25,942 bases of DNA, taken from a virus. The notes below the pieces were generated by a model that saw nothing but the letters and a program-made list of their open reading frames with translations, made no database searches and was not told where the DNA came from. Below are positions 5,266 through 12,129 of this stretch, piece by piece (position 1 is the stretch's first letter; each line of letters opens with the position of its first letter). A program made the translations under genes and the position numbers. The stretch spans positions 1-25,942 of IMG/VR virus record IMGVR_UViG_3300010354_000559, one strand, 5' to 3'.

Positions 5266-5430
5266 TTAGTCTCCACCAGCACTTGATGATGATCTTTTGG
5301 CACATGCGGTTCCACCTTTTGCCATCGTATACTTTGTACGCTTATAACACTTTGGTTTATAATCACTCCATTTTACATTAGCACCAGGATCACCTTTCAT
5401 TTCTAAAATAAAATTTTTAAATGATTTCAT
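5266..5430 (-). CDS. 54-aa small basic protein, unknown function
   Basis: ATG at 5430 overlaps the last 14 bases of hsp20 in another frame and gives 54 codons to TAA at 5268-5266. The N-terminus is MKSFKNFILEM. The middle holds a W and two cysteines (C28, C43) within a lysine/tyrosine-rich stretch, KCYKRTKYTM, and the end is AKRSSSSAGGD. I do not recognise a family. The overlap with hsp20 and the terminator starting 32 bases downstream argue that it is a real gene filling the gap. The two cysteines and many lysines could suit nucleic-acid or metal binding, but nothing proves it. The TAA is part of CTAAATAA, which resembles a cyanophage late promoter but is probably chance. Confidence 0.65.
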   Translation of the reverse strand: MKSFKNFILEMKGDPGANVKWSDYKPKCYKRTKYTMAKGGTACAKRSSSSAGGD

Positions 5431-5860
5431 AGATTCGTTTCTTTTGATGCTCTGGAATAACTCTATTTAGTTTGATAGTGAGTAATCCATCAACAAAAGC
5501 AACGTTTGCAACCTCTACATCATCAGAGAGTGTCCAGGTGCGAGTGAATGCTCTCTTGGCCAATCCTTGATGAATGTACTCATCAGTTTCTTCATTATTT
5601 TTAACTGCCTGGACGAAGAGTTTGTTCCACTCTGTAGTGACTTCAATGTCTTCTCTCTTGAATCCAGCAAGAGCTAATTCCAGTCTAAAGACCGTTTCAC
5701 TTTCTTTTACAAGATTGTATGGTGGATAATTTGTATGCGTCTCAAACGCAGTATCAAATCTCCTAAACCATTCATCTAAACCAATACTATTTCTTTGAAT
5801 TGTTGCTAAGTACTTTTCTGTTTCGGGTACAGATAAAGTAAGTGAATTTGGACCGAACAT
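5417..5860 (-). CDS. hsp20: Hsp20-type small heat-shock protein
   Basis: ATP-independent holdase chaperone, a signature gene of T4-like cyanophages. It has 147 residues. The alpha-crystallin domain runs from about residue 45 (YPPYNLVKESE) to 138, with a conserved LALAGF segment and the VAFVDGLLTIKL motif matching the family's A-x-x-x-n-G-v-L signature. It ends in a short tail containing IYEII, an I-x-I-like oligomerisation motif. The ribosome site is strong: AAGGAGGT six bases before ATG. It starts a new unit after the regA terminator, with an AT-rich late-promoter-like TTAAATA at 5920-5914. It probably protects or helps fold phage proteins; substrates cannot be read from the sequence. Confidence 0.93.
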   Translation of the reverse strand: MFGPNSLTLSVPETEKYLATIQRNSIGLDEWFRRFDTAFETHTNYPPYNLVKESETVFRLELALAGFKREDIEVTTEWNKLFVQAVKNNEETDEYIHQGLAKRAFTRTWTLSDDVEVANVAFVDGLLTIKLNRVIPEHQKKRIYEII

Positions 5861-5878
5861 AATAGACCTCCTTGAGCG

Positions 5879-5920
5879 TCTTAGTAGTGATGGATCCTTT
5901 CGGCATCCAATACTATTTAA
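5879..5920 (-). promoter_or_regulatory. hsp20 leader: late-promoter-like motif and GAAA hairpin
   Basis: TTAAATA (5920-5914) resembles the T4/cyanophage late -10 element. It is followed in the leader by GGATgCC-GAAA-GGATCC (5906-5890), a short stem with a GNRA tetraloop and one bulged G. The hairpin lies about 30 bases before the hsp20 start. It could set mRNA stability or bind a regulator; no function is shown. Confidence 0.35.
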
Positions 5921-5932
5921 CCATAAAACGAA

Positions 5933-5966
5933 AAAGAGAGGAACGGTAAGAACCGAACCTCTCTTT
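5933..5966 (-). terminator. Intrinsic terminator of the replisome operon (after regA)
   Basis: Minus-strand RNA pairs AAAGAGAGG (5966-5958) with CCTCTCTTT (5941-5933) and inner CGG with CCG across a small internal loop, then continues UUCGUUUUA. Together with the stem's own U's this gives a U-rich tail. A second smaller hairpin, GAGACC...GGTCTC, precedes it at about 6006-5985. Confidence 0.82.
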
Positions 5967-6014
5967 AGGGTGTTCCGACTTTTGTAGAGACCGCACGAAA
6001 GGTCTCAAGAATAT

Positions 6015-6455
6015 TTATTCGGTTTCCTGACCCTTACCTTTTTTGCCAATATTATACTTTTGTTCGAGAATCCAATCGCCTTTGTCTTTATAAGAAAGAA
6101 CTTTAATTTGATTCAAAGGAGCAATATCTGCAATTGCTTCTTGTTTAACGACAGTAATAAGGCCCCAATCAGCAAGCAAGCGTGTGATGCGGTTTCGGCG
6201 CTGCACATCATTGATTGTTAGATTTGCATGTTTACCATCCAGGGCAAACAGTTCCTTAAAGTGGACCAGGTAATATCTACCTTGTTTATGAAGAATATGG
6301 CAACTCTGATAGAGTTTTTTCTCCTTTCTTGATGCTACTCCGATACGAGTAAGAGTTTCACGGACCTTTAGAAAATCGTCAGGTTCGTTCAAAAGAACTT
6401 CCACCATCATATCGGGAGTCCAATGAACTTGTGGTTCAACAGTTTGAGTAGTCAT
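6015..6455 (-). CDS. regA: RegA translational repressor
   Basis: RNA-binding protein that represses translation of many early mRNAs by occluding their start regions; in T4 it acts on its own mRNA and on 44, 45 and 62. It has 146 residues against 122 in T4, the extra length mainly at the N- and C-termini. It aligns clearly to T4 RegA: PDDFLKVRETLTRIGVAS, LYQSCHILHKQGRYYLVHFK, then RLLADWGLI and ILEQKYNIGKK. Last gene of the replisome operon, with an ATGA overlap from gp62 and a terminator 50 bases after the stop. The 62-regA order is that of T4. Confidence 0.95.
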   Translation of the reverse strand: MTTQTVEPQVHWTPDMMVEVLLNEPDDFLKVRETLTRIGVASRKEKKLYQSCHILHKQGRYYLVHFKELFALDGKHANLTINDVQRRNRITRLLADWGLITVVKQEAIADIAPLNQIKVLSYKDKGDWILEQKYNIGKKGKGQETE

Positions 6456-6835
6456 TTTTTTCCGCCAGTTTCAAGTCGTTGTTTAATAAAGTTAATTTGT
6501 TCTTTTGATAAAATTTTCAGTGCTTGAGATGCTTTTTCGTTACTATAACCATAGTATTGTTTAACACACTCTAAGTCTGCTACCTTATCTTTTCGGATCC
6601 AGGGAGAAAATCTCTTCTTTTTCCTCAAACTATTTAGATAAAACGAATATTGCATGTCTTTATCTAAGAAATGATACTTATTCATTTCGTTTGCAAACAT
6701 GACACAATCAATATGGCCAGATAAACATCGATTAATAATATAGGGAGGGTAATCTTTTATTGTCGAAGAATCTTCGATTAGATCTTCTTTTGTAAAGTTA
6801 ATAGAGTTCAACCAATCTTTAAGTTCGTATGTCAT
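6452..6835 (-). CDS. 62: gp62 clamp-loader small subunit
   Basis: Small subunit of the gp44/gp62 clamp loader that opens the gp45 ring and places it on primer-template DNA. It has 127 residues, shorter than T4 gp62 (187) but typical for cyanophages. Seen in it: a basic LRKKKRFSPWIRKDK segment (about residues 70-84), then QYYGYSNEKASQALKILS and a C-terminal QRLETGGKK. Similarity to T4 gp62 is weak, so the call rests on these segments and on position before regA. In T4 gene 62 directly follows 44. Here two genes intervene. ATGA overlaps on both sides. Confidence 0.85.
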   Translation of the reverse strand: MTYELKDWLNSINFTKEDLIEDSSTIKDYPPYIINRCLSGHIDCVMFANEMNKYHFLDKDMQYSFYLNSLRKKKRFSPWIRKDKVADLECVKQYYGYSNEKASQALKILSKEQINFIKQRLETGGKK

Positions 6836-7947
6836 CGGATAATCTGAATCTCCTCATCATCTGTCCAAAGTTCAACCTTCGTTCTAAATCTATTTTCTTC
6901 TTTCAGTTTCTCATATCTTTTTGTTGCTTTCTTTTTCCACCAAGCAACAATATTTTCAAGATAAAACTTATCCCAGTTAGGTCCAGGAATAAGTTCATCT
7001 TGCTCACCAAGAATCACTTCACGAACATTTGAATAACCGTAATCAGAAATATAAAATCTTTTTTTCTGAGTCAAAGCAAATGCAGCATTGATTACATTAT
7101 TAAATTCTTCAAGTTTTTGCTTATCTTGAAGAGAGTTTCGAATAATCGAAATCATCTTTGTCTGACGTTTCATCTTTTTAGATGATGCTTTATTGTCGGT
7201 CAGTGGTGTATTATTGTTTAGTAAAGTAAAACGGTCATGGAGTTTATGAAAGACTTCATCGTGCAGAAGTGGCAAGAATTTACTTTCAGTCAAACCTTTA
7301 TATCTCATATAAGGTTTCAAACCATCATATTGAGACGCATCTGTGGTTGAACCATAGAGCGATGTAGTTTCAAACAAAGCAATATCTTTTTCAAAAACTT
7401 TATTCAAAGTCTCACGGGCAAAATGAGAACAGCACATAAGTGCAAGAAGTTTGCCGCCAAGATAGTTATAACCAAAAGGTTGTGATGGAACAATCACAAA
7501 TCCCATGGCCGCATGGCGATTAAAAATAGAAAGATCTGGTGCTTTTCCTAACCACTCATTTCTTGGTTTTGAATTGATTGTTGGAGATCCAAATCGAATA
7601 AATCCAAGAACTTTTTTGGTATTTTTTTCAAATATCATCCAACGCAATTCTCTTCCGGGAATATTTGACTCGTTGTTATGCGAGGAAACCACCCGCAGTA
7701 GATTTACATAATGTTCCTGTGGAACTGCATTCTGAAATCTTGCACCCACAAATTTAATTTCAAACTCCATATCCTCAGGATGAATATCTTCGTTGAAGAA
7801 CTCATCATGAAGAGGAACAAGAGAACTTGTTGACGCTATAACTTCTTTCTTTACAAATCTCAAATAGTCCTCAATATTAGACATATGAGAAAAGTATTCA
7901 ATAAACTCATCTGCGGCCCATACCGCATCTTCTTCAGATACAATCAT
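6832..7947 (-). CDS. DUF4338 (DruA-like) protein
   Basis: Protein of 371 residues lying between the clamp-loader subunits. The core (about 100-222) reads LRWMIF, VLGFIRFGSP, KPRNEWLG, FNRHAAMGFVIVP, YLGGKLLALM, FETTSLYG, SQYDGLKP and GLTES. I recognise this as the pattern of DUF4338, the family of DruA from the Druantia anti-phage system: an R-W start, a GF...S step, R-D/N-x-x-x-G, N, F-x-I/V-x-P, LLAL, then an ETF/T segment. The C-terminal 100 residues are basic and tryptophan-rich (AWWKKKATKRYEKLK), suggesting DNA contact. Function is unknown; it may be a DNA-acting enzyme. ATGA overlaps with the cupin gene and gp62 place it in the same coupled operon. The family call is from memory. Confidence 0.7.
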   Translation of the reverse strand: MIVSEEDAVWAADEFIEYFSHMSNIEDYLRFVKKEVIASTSSLVPLHDEFFNEDIHPEDMEFEIKFVGARFQNAVPQEHYVNLLRVVSSHNNESNIPGRELRWMIFEKNTKKVLGFIRFGSPTINSKPRNEWLGKAPDLSIFNRHAAMGFVIVPSQPFGYNYLGGKLLALMCCSHFARETLNKVFEKDIALFETTSLYGSTTDASQYDGLKPYMRYKGLTESKFLPLLHDEVFHKLHDRFTLLNNNTPLTDNKASSKKMKRQTKMISIIRNSLQDKQKLEEFNNVINAAFALTQKKRFYISDYGYSNVREVILGEQDELIPGPNWDKFYLENIVAWWKKKATKRYEKLKEENRFRTKVELWTDDEEIQIIR

Positions 7948-8489
7948 AATCTAACCATTGGGATACTAATACTCAATCTATCTGTAAGTGGTTCAAATAA
8001 GTGATATTGTTTTGCTGGAATATAAACGTTGTCACCAGGTTCAAGAATTTTTTGTTCTTTAATACTTAACCCACTATCAGAACTAATTACATCTGCAACA
8101 TAACCATATTCATTATATACAGTTACTCTGGATTTACCAATGCATTGAACAATCAAATTATCTGGGTTATCGCAATGGACAGAAAAAGATCGACTACCAA
8201 CTTTTCCAGCATAAATGTGTGATTGTGCATGAACGTTATTATCGCGTTCAACTTCCTCAATGAGATTTCTTACTGCAGGAGTTACAGTGCTACCGTGAAT
8301 GATAAAGGTATAGCATTGATTCCAAAGATACTTAAGTTTTGGAATATCAAAACGCATTTCCCAATTTGTGCGAATAATATATTCATTAGGATCTATTTTT
8401 TTGCCAGTATTTGGATCTATTAAAACTGCAACATTTTCAGTGACTGTCGTGGTTTCAATAAAATACCACATCTCATCAAAAGTAATCAT
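7944..8489 (-). CDS. JmjC/cupin-4-like protein, putative Fe(II)/2OG oxygenase
   Basis: Protein of 181 residues between gp44 and the DUF4338 gene. The cupin core shows H105-x-D107 (SVHCDNPDNLIVQCIGKSR), then LEPGDNVYIPAKQYH with H163, and a final strand RLSISIPM. HxD...H is the iron-binding facial triad. The wording HxDN.D..IvQ..G..R followed by PGD.vYiP...yH resembles JmjC/cupin-4 hydroxylases of the ribosomal-oxygenase type. The N-terminal ~85 residues carry no clear domain. The substrate is unknown; a protein of the replisome or of translation is one guess. ATGA overlaps on both sides show co-translation with gp44 and the DUF4338 gene. It could instead be a non-enzymatic cupin. Confidence 0.72.
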   Translation of the reverse strand: MITFDEMWYFIETTTVTENVAVLIDPNTGKKIDPNEYIIRTNWEMRFDIPKLKYLWNQCYTFIIHGSTVTPAVRNLIEEVERDNNVHAQSHIYAGKVGSRSFSVHCDNPDNLIVQCIGKSRVTVYNEYGYVADVISSDSGLSIKEQKILEPGDNVYIPAKQYHLFEPLTDRLSISIPMVRL

Positions 8490-9430
8490 ACAAATTCACA
8501 TTCACACATAATTTCAGTGAGTGCTGCTAAGAGGTTAATTTCTTGATCAGCCACAAACGCAACTTGGTATTGATACTTAGCAATAATAAGAACGGCAGCG
8601 GGGATAGTGGAGGGTACAAGATTACCATACATGGCGTCATAAACCCTGCGAAGAATGACAGAAGAATCGTTATCCAAGTTGGAGACCACCCACTTTCGTA
8701 CTTCTGCGAAGTTCTTGTCTTTGAGATATTTAATGAGATCATTTACTGAAACGTCTGAGAAAGATGCAAGAATTCCCGAGTCGATTTTTCCTCCTGTAGA
8801 ATACCTCTGACATTCGTTGAGGACTCGACGGAAATCTGGGAAATGTTTTGAAACAAGTTCTGCAACGACTTTTTGATCATACTCAATCTTTTCTTGATCC
8901 AAGATTGTTTGGAGTCGCTGAAAGAAATTGACTGCAAGTTGTTGTTTTTGCTTTCCTTTGATGGAGAAATCAATAACAGCACATCGGGAGTGCAGAGGTT
9001 CAATGATTTTGTTCTTGTAGTTGCAGGTGAAGATGAATCGGCAGTTGCTATAAAATGCCTCAATATTCGCCCGTAGAAGGAGTTGGACATCATTACCCGT
9101 ATTGTCTGCTTCGTCAATGATAATGACTTTGTGTTTAGAAGATCCCGTAAGTGAGACGGTCGAAGCAAAGTTCTTTGCCTGGTTCCGTACAGTATCCAGG
9201 AAACGCCCTTCGTCGGATCCATTGATGACATAATAGTCTGCTCCCAGTTCATTACATAGTGCCTTTGCAATTGTAGTTTTACCAATACCCGGAGGCCCAG
9301 CAAGAAGAAGATTAGGAATCTCTCCTTTCTCTACAAACTCTTTAAATGTTTTTTTAGTTTCATCAGGAAGAATACAATCATCAATTACTTGAGGACGGTA
9401 TTTTTCCGTGAGAAGAAATTCACTTGCCAT
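8486..9430 (-). CDS. 44: gp44 clamp-loader large subunit (AAA+)
   Basis: ATPase subunit of the sliding-clamp loader; four copies pair with gp62. It has 314 residues (T4: 319). Walker A GPPGIGKT is at 45-52, Walker B IIIDEAD at 103-109, sensor-1 near TCNY (135-138) and the SRC arginine-finger motif at 148-150. The start MASEFLLTEKYRP matches the family's conserved N-terminus (LWvEKYRP), which fixes the ATG at 9430. It begins five bases after the preceding stop and ends in an ATGA overlap with the cupin-like gene. Confidence 0.96.
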   Translation of the reverse strand: MASEFLLTEKYRPQVIDDCILPDETKKTFKEFVEKGEIPNLLLAGPPGIGKTTIAKALCNELGADYYVINGSDEGRFLDTVRNQAKNFASTVSLTGSSKHKVIIIDEADNTGNDVQLLLRANIEAFYSNCRFIFTCNYKNKIIEPLHSRCAVIDFSIKGKQKQQLAVNFFQRLQTILDQEKIEYDQKVVAELVSKHFPDFRRVLNECQRYSTGGKIDSGILASFSDVSVNDLIKYLKDKNFAEVRKWVVSNLDNDSSVILRRVYDAMYGNLVPSTIPAAVLIIAKYQYQVAFVADQEINLLAALTEIMCECEFV

Positions 9431-9433
9431 AAT

Positions 9434-9949
9434 TTAATTTATCCAAGAAGGTTTACGCTCAGGCATACGTAGATAGTTATCAGACACCCAAGGTTTCGAA
9501 GCAATATACATTTTGTAGGCAGTAAATGTATCAATGCTGTCATCAAGTTTATATTCGTCGGGCATTGCACGGGCAAATGGTGTTACTTCTGTAATTTTAC
9601 CTTTAGGAAACAAATAGTATGCTTGTAATAGAGTATTATAGCACGAATGTTGTTTTCCGTAACGAAGATGATATTCGTCTGCAAGATTCATACCATGTTT
9701 GATTAACCAATAGGCATTATGGATACTTTCCATTGCCCATTTGGTACAGGGATGATTGCGAAATGCTCCTTTCTCGGTTTTATAGGGGGTTCCATCTGCC
9801 TTAGGGAGAGTTCCGTATCCGTGTCCCCACTTGTCTGATGCCACAATAGAGAGCATCTGACAGCACTCTAGGGGCATCTTAACAACGTGTTTGTCGGGTA
9901 GACAAATAGCACTCTCAGCGGGCCAAGGGGAAGTGACAAAGATGTTCAT
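9434..9949 (-). CDS. Conserved phage protein with DKHVVKM motif, unknown function
   Basis: Protein of 171 residues between the clamp (gp45) and the clamp loader (gp44). Conserved-looking blocks: LPDKHVVKMPLECCQMLS (about 16-33), FRNHPCTKWAMES (about 63-75), the LADEYHLRYGKQHSCYNTLL region, then PFARAMPDEYKLDD and AYKMYIASKP. I recognise this as a widespread phage/marine-virus family, usually left as hypothetical, with no established activity. The invariant-looking His, Lys, Glu and Cys residues suggest an enzyme, but I cannot name it. The ATG at 9949 overlaps the gp45 stop codon; an upstream in-frame TTG is less likely. Location suggests a DNA-metabolism role. Confidence 0.8.
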   Translation of the reverse strand: MNIFVTSPWPAESAICLPDKHVVKMPLECCQMLSIVASDKWGHGYGTLPKADGTPYKTEKGAFRNHPCTKWAMESIHNAYWLIKHGMNLADEYHLRYGKQHSCYNTLLQAYYLFPKGKITEVTPFARAMPDEYKLDDSIDTFTAYKMYIASKPWVSDNYLRMPERKPSWIN

Positions 9950-10614
9950 CAACCAAAAGTAGAATCAGGCTCCAGAGCAATATGATAAGTCACATCAAAT
10001 CCAGTATTCTTGAATCGTGACAAAAGTTTACGAGAAATCACCACTTCATAAGAACCGGGCAGGATCTTGATGTTTTCTACTTTGAAGTTAAAGGTAAAGA
10101 CATCATCAGTCTCACCAACAATAACAGAAAAATCATTAGAAGTATCGTTCTTTTTATCACGAACAACCAGTTTCACCACACCTGCTTCACCAACTACAGA
10201 CAAATCTGGGAGTTGATAAACAGCAGCAGCCTTAAGCAGTTTATCCAATTCTTTTGTGTCAAGAAGGAAGCAAACGTCCTCACTTGGAAGATTAATATCT
10301 TTTTCTGGAGGAGTTACAATTACATTCGGATCCGCAAAGAAATATTTTGAACGTGATTTACCTTCTTTAATCATCACATAACCATCATTCTGAAAATCAA
10401 GTTCAGCATTCTGGTGAAGGTTCAGTCCATTAAGAAATTGATTCAAATCATAAATGCCAAAGTCCTTAGGAAGTTCTTCATCAATCTTTGCTTCTGCAAG
10501 AATATTTTTCATCACAGAAATAGTGCGAAGAGAACTACCCTGCTTAAACAGAATAGATTGATTAATCGAAGAGAAGTTCTTCAGAAGAGTCAGAGTTTTA
10601 TCAGAGAGTTTCAT
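9949..10614 (-). CDS. 45: gp45 sliding clamp
   Basis: Trimeric DNA-polymerase processivity clamp. In T4 it is also the mobile activator of late transcription through gp55 and gp33. Starting at ATG 10614 it is 221 residues (T4: 228) and begins MKLSDKTLTLLKNFSSIN, closely matching T4 gp45 (MKLSKDTTALLKNFATIN), which is why I prefer this start. Another ATG at 10635 adds seven residues; the two ATGs sit in a repeated ATGAAACTC nine-mer. No good ribosome site precedes either, so coupling to the preceding gene (stop at 10638) is likely. A two-domain clamp fold is expected; no catalytic residues apply. Confidence 0.93.
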   Translation of the reverse strand: MKLSDKTLTLLKNFSSINQSILFKQGSSLRTISVMKNILAEAKIDEELPKDFGIYDLNQFLNGLNLHQNAELDFQNDGYVMIKEGKSRSKYFFADPNVIVTPPEKDINLPSEDVCFLLDTKELDKLLKAAAVYQLPDLSVVGEAGVVKLVVRDKKNDTSNDFSVIVGETDDVFTFNFKVENIKILPGSYEVVISRKLLSRFKNTGFDVTYHIALEPDSTFG

Positions 10615-10637
10615 AGTTTGGGGTTTGAGTTTCATAA

Positions 10638-10991
10638 TCAACGGAATTCGGTAAGACCATTATCCTTACGCGAATAATGACCATCAAAGTGAAGAAGAAG
10701 CATAGCATAATGAATGACTTTCATCAAATCACGCTTGCTACGGCCGTCTTTATCACCATAACGAGAACCGTATTTAATAATGTTTGCTTGACAAAAATCA
10801 GAAGCAAGTTCTTTTGCTGCCATTAGATCAATCGTTTGGACATCTTTGTAATCTTGTTGATGTCCACAATAGTGACTTCCATAAGTGCTAGTCACATAGT
10901 CCTGAATGTCCTTCAGGATTTTATCTTCGTTATATTTCCAGAGATGATTTGTGTTTTCAGGCATATCAATAGTAAAGGTTGAATCACTCAT
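10638..10991 (-). CDS. DUF3310-like small protein
   Basis: Protein of 117 residues and first gene of the replisome operon. The core HYCGHQQDYKDVQTIDLMAA...QANIIKYGSRYGDKDGR followed by KRDLMKVIHYAMLLLHF resembles DUF3310, a phage family with conserved HY, N-ikY-RyG-K and DL-K-hY motifs often found near nucleotide-metabolism genes. MazG-like helical packing is another reading. The reading frame is open far upstream within cobS, but that extension is antisense-free overlap only; ATG 10991 after the cobS stop fits. A hairpin at 10995-11021 sits three bases before the start. Its stop lies three bases before the earlier possible gp45 ATG. Confidence 0.78.
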   Translation of the reverse strand: MSDSTFTIDMPENTNHLWKYNEDKILKDIQDYVTSTYGSHYCGHQQDYKDVQTIDLMAAKELASDFCQANIIKYGSRYGDKDGRSKRDLMKVIHYAMLLLHFDGHYSRKDNGLTEFR

Positions 10992-10994
10992 AAA

Positions 10995-11021
10995 GGGGAA
11001 GGCACTTTTTTTACCTTCCCC
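10995..11021 (-). promoter_or_regulatory. Start-site hairpin, formed only in read-through RNA
   Basis: GGGGAAGG (11021-11014) pairs with CCTTCCCC (11002-10995) around an 11-base loop, ending three bases before the ATG of the DUF3310-like gene. RNA made from the promoter at 11023-11051 would begin near 11016 and lose most of the 5' arm. RNA reading through from cobS would keep it. Only three U follow, so termination would be weak. Confidence 0.5.
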
Positions 11022-11022
11022 A

Positions 11023-11051
11023 ATTATATCAGAAAGGTGCCTTAGGCGCAA
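11023..11051 (-). promoter_or_regulatory. Sigma70-type promoter of the replisome operon
   Basis: Minus strand TTGCGC (11051-11046), 17 bases, TATAAT (11028-11023). The -10 is perfect and the -35 matches at its first three positions. It overlaps the last codons of cobS and would start RNA near 11016, 25 bases before the DUF3310-like gene. Confidence 0.65.
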
Positions 11052-12129
11052 CTTCTTGAGAAGGCATCTGGAAATCGACATCAATTTTGTCATAGAGTTC
11101 CAAGAACGACTGTTTGGTCTCATCATCAAATCGTGCAGTGCAAACATCAATTGCTTTTGCTTTGTTGCCGAAAATGCTGTAAGCACGAATAATGTGAACC
11201 AGGCGGCGAGTGCTGATGATTTCCTCAATACCACCATCATAGAAAGTTTTACGGATCACATCTGCCCAGTCCACCAGGCGCTTACAGAAGTCGCGGTCTT
11301 CCACACTCAAGTCCAAAGCGATACCTTCCAGGATCTTCTGCTCTGTTGCGGGAGCAGGATAGGACTGCTCAAAGGTCACAGGGAAACGCTCAAGGAATGC
11401 TTCGTTGAGAACATTGGTGCCGATGAAGCGGCCATCATCAGAACCCTTACCTTTGGTGTTGGCAGTGGCGATAACGTTGAATCCAATAGCAGGTTTCACC
11501 CACTTACCAATCTTCTTAAGAAAAACGCCCTTTCCTTCTAGAATGGACTGAAGGCAGAGGATTTTGTTAGAAGCGAGGTCGATCTCGTCAAGGAGAAGAA
11601 TAGCACCGCGCTCCAGGGCCTCAATCACAGGACCGTTGTGCCAAGCAGTATTTCCATCAACAAGACGGAAACCGCCGATAAGATCATCTTCATCCGTTTC
11701 AATCGTAATATTTACACGAATCAATTCGCGTTTAAGTTGAGCACACGCTTGCTCAACCGAGAACGTTTTACCGTTGCCCGAAAGACCCGTAATGAACGTT
11801 GGATAGAATAGACGGGACTCAATAATTTTTTTAACATCAGCAAAGTTACCAAACTTGACGAAGGTATCATCTTTTTCTGGGATAAGGTTCTGTTCTACAG
11901 GAGGAACTACTGCAGGAGCTTGATATGCTTGTTCCATCTTTCCAACTATAGTAGGAGTAACTTCCAAATTCCACTTGCCACGACCAGTTTTGAATTGATC
12001 GAGACGCTTTGTTACGGTTTGGTAGTTTGCATCATTCATACTACACCATGCACGAATATCTCCACTGGTAATATTATTACCATAAAGATTTTGAAGAGAA
12101 GTACGAATGTAGTCGGTGGAAAGTGCCAT
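11029..12129 (-). CDS. cobS: CobS/MoxR-type AAA+ ATPase
   Basis: AAA+ ATPase of the MoxR/CobS group, usually annotated in cyanophages as CobS, the ATPase of aerobic cobaltochelatase. It has 366 residues. An N-terminal domain (1-60) is followed by a proline-rich linker. Walker A GLSGNGKT is at 115-122, the MoxR/CobS segment DLIGGFRLVDGNTAWHNGP at about 149-167, Walker B LLLDEID at 178-184, sensor-1 ATANT at 221-225 and sensor-2 STRRL at 306-310. The motor looks intact. The CobT-like VWA gene lies upstream, so the two probably form one AAA+-VWA machine. The large chelatase subunit CobN is absent here, so the substrate is open. The start has no Shine-Dalgarno and a short leader after TATAAT at 12153. 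Confidence 0.92.
   Translation of the reverse strand: MALSTDYIRTSLQNLYGNNITSGDIRAWCSMNDANYQTVTKRLDQFKTGRGKWNLEVTPTIVGKMEQAYQAPAVVPPVEQNLIPEKDDTFVKFGNFADVKKIIESRLFYPTFITGLSGNGKTFSVEQACAQLKRELIRVNITIETDEDDLIGGFRLVDGNTAWHNGPVIEALERGAILLLDEIDLASNKILCLQSILEGKGVFLKKIGKWVKPAIGFNVIATANTKGKGSDDGRFIGTNVLNEAFLERFPVTFEQSYPAPATEQKILEGIALDLSVEDRDFCKRLVDWADVIRKTFYDGGIEEIISTRRLVHIIRAYSIFGNKAKAIDVCTARFDDETKQSFLELYDKIDVDFQMPSQEVAPKAPF

Follow-up and report, generated by a model that had tools for sequence, protein, structure and literature searches.

A DruA-family protein with a predicted GNAT fold alternates with a Dam-type methyltransferase in the clamp-loader operon of marine T4-like phages

What work could a relative of the antiphage defense protein DruA perform inside the replisome operon of a virus? 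The question arises from a gene at positions 6832-7947 (minus strand) of the window, the 25,942-nucleotide stretch of viral DNA analyzed here. A preliminary description of this locus recognized a DUF4338 (DruA-like) gene coupled to gp62 and offered two readings of it, namely, a defense-family enzyme working for replication or a decoy or antagonist of Druantia. DruA itself is listed only as "unknown function, DUF4338 domain" in the available text of PMC7251935. Our follow-up confirms the earlier observation and supports part of its interpretation. The product of the DruA-like gene probably serves to mark the DNA of the phage itself, and the replication-factor and decoy readings are the weaker ones.

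The gene, its family, and its operon

The open reading frame at 6832-7947 begins with ATG and encodes 371 amino acids, and the plus strand over the same positions is rich in stop codons. The gene is real because dN/dS is low: relative to the window copy, the median is 0.048 and the maximum 0.084 over the 60 usable of 77 pairs, as expected under purifying selection. Its family membership is equally clear. The protein matches PF14236, the Pfam DruA family, over residues 61-197 (E = 7e-10; 39 bits versus a cut-off of 27), as do 100 of 100 diverse viral relatives at E ≤ 0.1; the PADLOC DruA1 model matches it at 2.7e-5; and profile-profile comparison (hhalign) with DUF4338 proteins of bacterial genomes and MAG contigs gave a probability of 100 (E = 5e-53, 248 columns). 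The family assignment made from the sequence in the preliminary description therefore holds. PHROG 19197, of unknown function, matches the protein over its entire length (1.4e-164).

The minus strand of the window reads gp45 (sliding clamp, 9949-10641), a denV-like gene, gp44 (AAA+ subunit of the clamp loader, 8486-9430), a gene for a cupin/JmjC-like protein (PF08007, 7944-8489), the DruA-like gene, gp62 (clamp-loader subunit, PF16790, 6452-6835), regA (translational repressor, PF01818, 6015-6455), and hsp20, and continues on to the polymerase gene gp43. gp44 forms the upstream border of the gp44-gp62 interval. The DruA-like gene is joined to both of its neighbors by 4-base ATGA overlaps, one combining the cupin-like stop with its own start and the other its stop with the gp62 start, which bears out the translational coupling to gp62 that had been claimed. 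The denV-like gene that separates gp45 from gp44 (9434-9952) encodes a pyrimidine-dimer glycosylase and belongs to this operon too. The cupin-like protein was considered as a functional partner and rejected on account of its rarity (10 ORFs over 337 sequences); it is an accessory gene that is not conserved. A scan of the nine proteins encoded at 5417-12129 of the 26-kb record found no DruE helicase or other dru gene product; the nine are the DruA-like protein together with products of phage replication and accessory genes.

Relatives were drawn from a phage collection, from cellular genome contigs, and from viral contigs, the last through a first scan of at least 600 rows and three further scans from which the best 80 of 145, 121, and 114 relatives were taken. 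Thirty-one records of the phage collection carry the DruA-like gene (25 Synechococcus phages, one named cyanophage, three Pelagibacter phage records, and two single-cell marine virus records). The public names for the gene conflict, with "putative cytoplasmic protein", "iron-binding protein", "hypothetical protein", and, in one deposited record, "methylcarbamoylase mom" all in use. The place in the clamp-loader operon that had been described for the window recurs among its relatives: gp62 is the next downstream marker at 78 of 80 loci in the group nearest to the window, with a -4 or -1 overlap at 73 of them, and in the short group gp62 is next at 74 of 80, with a -4 or -1 overlap at 70 of the 75 measured. 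Pelagibacter-type members lie between gp43 and uvsX or near gp46, and the S-B68 gene lies upstream of gp47. A single pelagiphage-type genome can hold two DUF4338 proteins, as seen in the HTVC008M record (L002) and in the viral contig of L270.

Cellular genome contigs yielded 16 DUF4338 loci, among which L501-L503, L506, L507, L509, and L513 are evidently pieces of T4-like phages. At L509, a partial DruA-like ORF stands beside gp62, regA, and hsp20 on a 5.1-Mb MAG chromosome labeled "Thermoplasmata", which suggests phage contamination or misassembly. At L514 (1154-2911), on a marine proteobacterial single-cell contig, a ParB_N domain is fused to DUF4338. The N-terminus of this protein resembles the N-terminus of a "DNA modification methylase" from a Streptococcus phage (5e-5) and weakly matches a PADLOC type II methyltransferase model; judged from these sequence matches, it is as if DUF4338 stood in the place of a methyltransferase.

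Fold and conserved motifs

An AlphaFold2 model built with a 100-row alignment (pLDDT 87.6, pTM 0.84) predicts that the core of the protein, at about residues 57-305 (7033-7779), has the GNAT acyltransferase fold. The fold matches listed, that is, the best 50, are GNATs and related acyltransferases with Z scores of 9.1-9.8 over residues 57-336. The structure of Mom from phage Mu (8bv8) is among these listed matches with a Z score of 9.4 over 170 residues, tied with others. Foldseek against the PDB returned weak matches that were mostly GNATs, all with E above 0.001 and the best at 0.013, and sequence searches against solved structures gave no match for the protein or its 100-member profile and none that was meaningful for a bacterial member. 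In a viral fold library, proteins of giant viruses match best (E = 1.4e-15), with a Mom lower down at 7.6e-3. The best of these matches (BFVD A0A3G4ZXG3, A0A5K0UAJ3, and A0A3G4ZRA1) belong to the giant viruses Faunusvirus, Yasminevirus, and Dasosvirus, a resemblance between modeled folds that suggests the presence of DUF4338-like proteins in viruses of eukaryotes. The available text of PMC10853773 likewise calls DUF4338 a GNAT domain.

The beta4-alpha3 loop VPSQPFGYNYLGGKLL (residues 153-168; 7444-7491) is the candidate acyl-CoA-binding loop, and Q156, G159, G164, G165, and K166 within it are invariant in the alignment. The acyl-CoA-binding loop of GNATs has the motif R/Q-x-x-G-x-G/A. The corresponding stretch after beta4, Q156-P-F-G159-Y-N161, has the invariant Q and G but N in place of G/A at the last position, and it may bind CoA. 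A second conserved element is the beta5 motif FETTSLYG...SQYDG (residues 192-215; 7303-7374), with invariant S196, L197, and Y207. The well-preserved core that the preliminary description saw in one protein extends across the phage families, with QPxGxNxxGGK present in 282 of 284 full proteins and TTSLYG in all 284. Its "extra" basic, Trp-rich C-terminus, on the other hand, proves to be a family feature: the C-terminal basic helix WWKKKATKRYEKLK (6889-6939) is common to bacterial DUF4338 proteins, W337 is invariant in a nine-sequence alignment that includes bacterial members, and the profile match to bacterial DUF4338 extends to residue 342.

The family relationship to DruA invites the idea that the phage protein is a decoy or antagonist of Druantia or of another host defense based on DUF4338. 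However, the gene is under strong purifying selection with the motifs of the GNAT region intact, and among 61 genomes centered on a Pelagibacteraceae MAG, the only one with DUF4338 owes it to the MAG contig that had supplied the query. Nothing turned up that positively supports such a role, and we consider it highly improbable.

Exchange with a DNA adenine methyltransferase

In seven of eight fetched cyanophages without the DruA-like gene (S-RIM14, Sf-FR1, Syn1, S-WAM2, S-CAM1, Syn30, and S-H9-1), the gp44-gp62 interval contains a gene for a DNA adenine methyltransferase. In ACG-2014f, the eighth, Dam lies elsewhere, and the interval contains a small gene called glutaredoxin. The Dam of the interval is a D12 N6-adenine methyltransferase (PF02086, 108 bits), and all 106 long Dam ORFs contain DPPY. 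That the exclusion is an artefact of record choice was answered with a set of loci anchored on gp44, that is, selected without regard to either gene. Both gp44 and gp62 are present at 124 of the 160 anchored loci, and the interval contains Dam at 98, the DruA-like gene at 17, both at none, and neither at nine. Were the two genes independent, both would be expected at 13.4 of the 124 loci (hypergeometric P = 9e-15, a value that ignores relatedness). The 36 loci left out for missing gp44 or gp62 comprise 23 with neither gene visible, 11 with Dam, and two with the DruA-like gene. For the window-near half, with 66 anchored loci, the counts are 40 with Dam, 17 with the DruA-like gene, none with both, and nine with neither.

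The exclusion is not confined to the interval. A first set of 23 whole records (15 with the DruA-like gene and eight with Dam at E < 1e-50) and a further 33 (20 and 13, respectively) include none with both, making 56 whole records of which 35 have the DruA-like gene and 21 a close Dam homolog; they were picked for carrying either gene or, in eight cases, for having no DruA-like gene, and "neither" is unreadable in this set. Twenty of the 31 DruA-positive collection records were searched whole for Dam, the remaining 11 being seven RefSeq duplicates, three further isolates or close kin, and one short fragment. Exclusion also holds where the DruA-like gene sits elsewhere (HTVC008M, Mosig, and S-B68) and where Dam does (ACG-2014f). 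S-SCSM2R, which has the DruA-like gene, encodes a remote methyltransferase elsewhere (26% identity). Within the 26 kb of the window, no Dam was found at E ≤ 10. The Synechococcus, cyanophage, and Prochlorococcus records of the phage collection include 461 with gp43, 413 with Dam, and 26 with the DruA-like gene.

One way to account for this pattern is to regard the gp44-gp62 interval as a cassette hot-spot, in which Dam and the DruA-like gene are alternative cargo with unrelated functions and exclude each other by virtue of their shared site. The interval does hold varied small genes as well, and its content swaps often. However, exclusion operates genome-wide, even with one of the two genes elsewhere, and two large genes of the DNA-modification type dominate among otherwise small ones. 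In addition, -4 or -1 overlaps link the DruA-like gene to gp62 in almost all members of the window and short groups, whereas other inserts vary. We regard an exchange of unrelated cargo as unlikely.

The replacement of one gene by the other has happened more than once. Label changes between Dam and the DruA-like gene number 19 on a gp44 FastTree of 145 loci, 15 on the regA tree, and nine on the gp62 tree. A quick IQ-TREE of gp44 with 76 rows has 18 changes, at least three of which are forced by starred (well-supported) branches. The swap has recurred, with at least three changes and probably more; many forks are weak. This recurrence bears on the possibility that the GNAT protein aids replication, either by acylating a protein of the host or of the replication machinery or by binding to the clamp loader. 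Such a role would suit the translational coupling to gp62 and the replisome neighbors of most members, the gp43-uvsX or gp46-vwa surroundings of others, and the preference of most solved-structure GNATs among the listed fold matches for proteins or small molecules. However, the DruA-like gene is dispensable, its position varies among pelagiphages, and it has repeatedly been exchanged with a DNA methyltransferase. Because a Dam-type enzyme has replaced it time and again in the same interval, the idea of an enzyme working for replication fits poorly; repeated exchange with a methyltransferase makes a component of the replication machine unlikely and is what two DNA-modification systems would fit. 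We judge a protein-directed or clamp-loader role to be quite unlikely.

Avoidance of GGCC and other palindromes

Palindromes were counted in 20- or 40-kb samples of 55 of the 56 whole records, with G005 left out as a near-copy of G004. The median observed/expected ratio of GGCC is 0.14 in the 21 Dam records and 0.75 in the 34 DruA-like records, and values below 0.2 occur in 14 of the 21 Dam samples and in none of the 34 others. The window itself has 32 GGCC sites versus 25.4 expected. For 28 pairs matched by gp44 identity, the ratio is 0.74 in the DruA-like members versus 0.23, the DruA-like member has the larger value in 21 of the pairs (Wilcoxon p = 0.0022), and GGCC alone among 16 palindromes passes Bonferroni correction in these pairs; in the comparison that took no account of relatedness, AGCT, CCGG, TGCA, and TCGA differed as well. 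The seven pairs closest in gp44 give a mixed picture for GGCC, and the starred branches provide only four or five phylogenetically independent pairs, too few for such a comparison, with hosts mostly unknown. Palindromes besides GGCC that are strongly avoided stand at 1.15 in the DruA-like phages versus 1.62 (p = 0.12). Avoidance of GATC, taken as a readout of Dam, showed no difference (0.87 versus 0.84). A C5-methyltransferase as the source of relaxed GGCC avoidance was rejected, with PF00145 matching 0 of 28 phage records and the control positive. Taken together, the relaxed avoidance is suggestive of protection at GGCC in the DruA-like phages.

Several 40-kb samples lack a palindrome altogether: TTAA in S-RIM14 (0 of 139 expected; L570, L610), CTAG in S-SM2 (0 of 68.5; L559, L619), GTAC in Syn1 (0 of 132; L572, L612), and ACGT in Mosig (0 of 54; L557, L617). 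CCGG is missing from most Dam phage samples.

A proposed function

DUF4338 membership, the GNAT fold of the model, the conserved place in the operon, the exclusion from Dam, the repeated swaps, and purifying selection are established. With moderate confidence, we propose that the DruA-like gene encodes a DNA-modifying GNAT acyltransferase that stands in for Dam. The enzyme would modify the phage's own DNA during replication, with an acyl-CoA-like molecule as the probable donor, and would fill the slot held by a Dam-type adenine methyltransferase in most related cyanophages. The resulting mark may protect phage DNA from restriction or, like Dam methylation, may serve as a self-mark. The proposal draws on the exclusion of the two genes within the interval and genome-wide and on their repeated swapping, on the identity of the alternative as a D12 N6-adenine methyltransferase, on the collection counts of Dam, DruA-like, and gp43 records, and on the relaxed GGCC avoidance of DruA-like carriers. 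It also draws on the GNAT fold, whose superfamily includes the DNA-modifying enzyme Mom, and on the L514 protein, in which DUF4338 is joined to ParB_N and an N-terminus like that of a DNA modification methylase. Several observations weaken it: swapping through recombination between gp44 and gp62 would suffice to make two cassettes exclusive, the fold search shows no preference for Mom and no sequence relation of the protein to Mom was found, other palindromes are still avoided, the GGCC difference is mixed in the closest pairs, S-SCSM2R has its remote methyltransferase, and nine anchored loci have neither gene.

A bolder version of this proposal, which we advance only tentatively, would make DUF4338 a second family of GNATs, besides Mom, that acylates DNA bases and is interchangeable with Dam in T4-like marine phages. 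It would shield DNA at or around GGCC, and the group that it modifies would accordingly be, perhaps, an exocyclic amine on cytosine or guanine and not on adenine. By extension, DruA of Druantia might itself be an enzyme that marks DNA or handles such marks. The replacement of Dam by DUF4338 in abundant, culturable marine phages offers a direct handle on DUF4338 function, since DNA from S-SM2, S-T4, and S-PRM1 can be compared with that of Dam-bearing relatives. Should a new base be found, viruses that are very common in the ocean would contribute a further family of DNA hypermodification enzymes, and the finding would suggest what part DUF4338 plays in the defense of bacteria.

Relation to known systems

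DruA-like proteins of six Synechococcus phages, S-PRM1 included, are already reported in PMC12774648 (the Phold paper), and the novelty that the preliminary description expected is thus not supported. The S-PRM1 copy is 54% identical to the window protein, and we infer from the phage name and the family that it is the protein pictured there. The available text of that paper describes structural similarity only (TM 0.73), with Dam exchange, GNAT assignment, and operon analysis absent from that text. The exchange of Dam and the DruA-like gene was not found in the literature searched, most subscription papers aside, and their mutual exclusion in the gp44-gp62 interval appears to be new.

HMM and profile-profile comparisons place the phage protein in one domain family with DruA of type I Druantia (PF14236), and the similarity includes the C-terminal WWK region. 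Unlike the Druantia gene, the phage gene is a single one in a replisome operon, with no Druantia partner among the nine proteins scanned, and the QPxGxNxxGGK and TTSLYG motifs of the phage families contrast with the NNLASKLL and ETFGDSEQYNGTCYKA of the mixed DUF4338 consensus. Mom of phage Mu (PF25680) is also phage-encoded and also has a GNAT fold, but it differs in operon place and motifs and is without HMM or hhalign relation to the DruA-like protein. The Pfam Mom HMM matched none of 100 members at E ≤ 0.1, while Mu Mom scored 253 bits with the same library. Membership in the Mom family by sequence was rejected on this Pfam result and on hhalign, which gave no significant match to Mu Mom alone or to Mu Mom with 31 close relatives, a set too alike for a deep profile; the best result was P 0.037, for DUF4338 against Mom. 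Ser124 of Mom, mutated in the inactive 8bv8, falls on G164 when placed by eye, with no significant hhalign alignment. Cyanophage Dam (PF02086) belongs to an unrelated Pfam family, and yet it is Dam that occupies the same gp44-gp62 interval, in mutual exclusion with the DruA-like gene.
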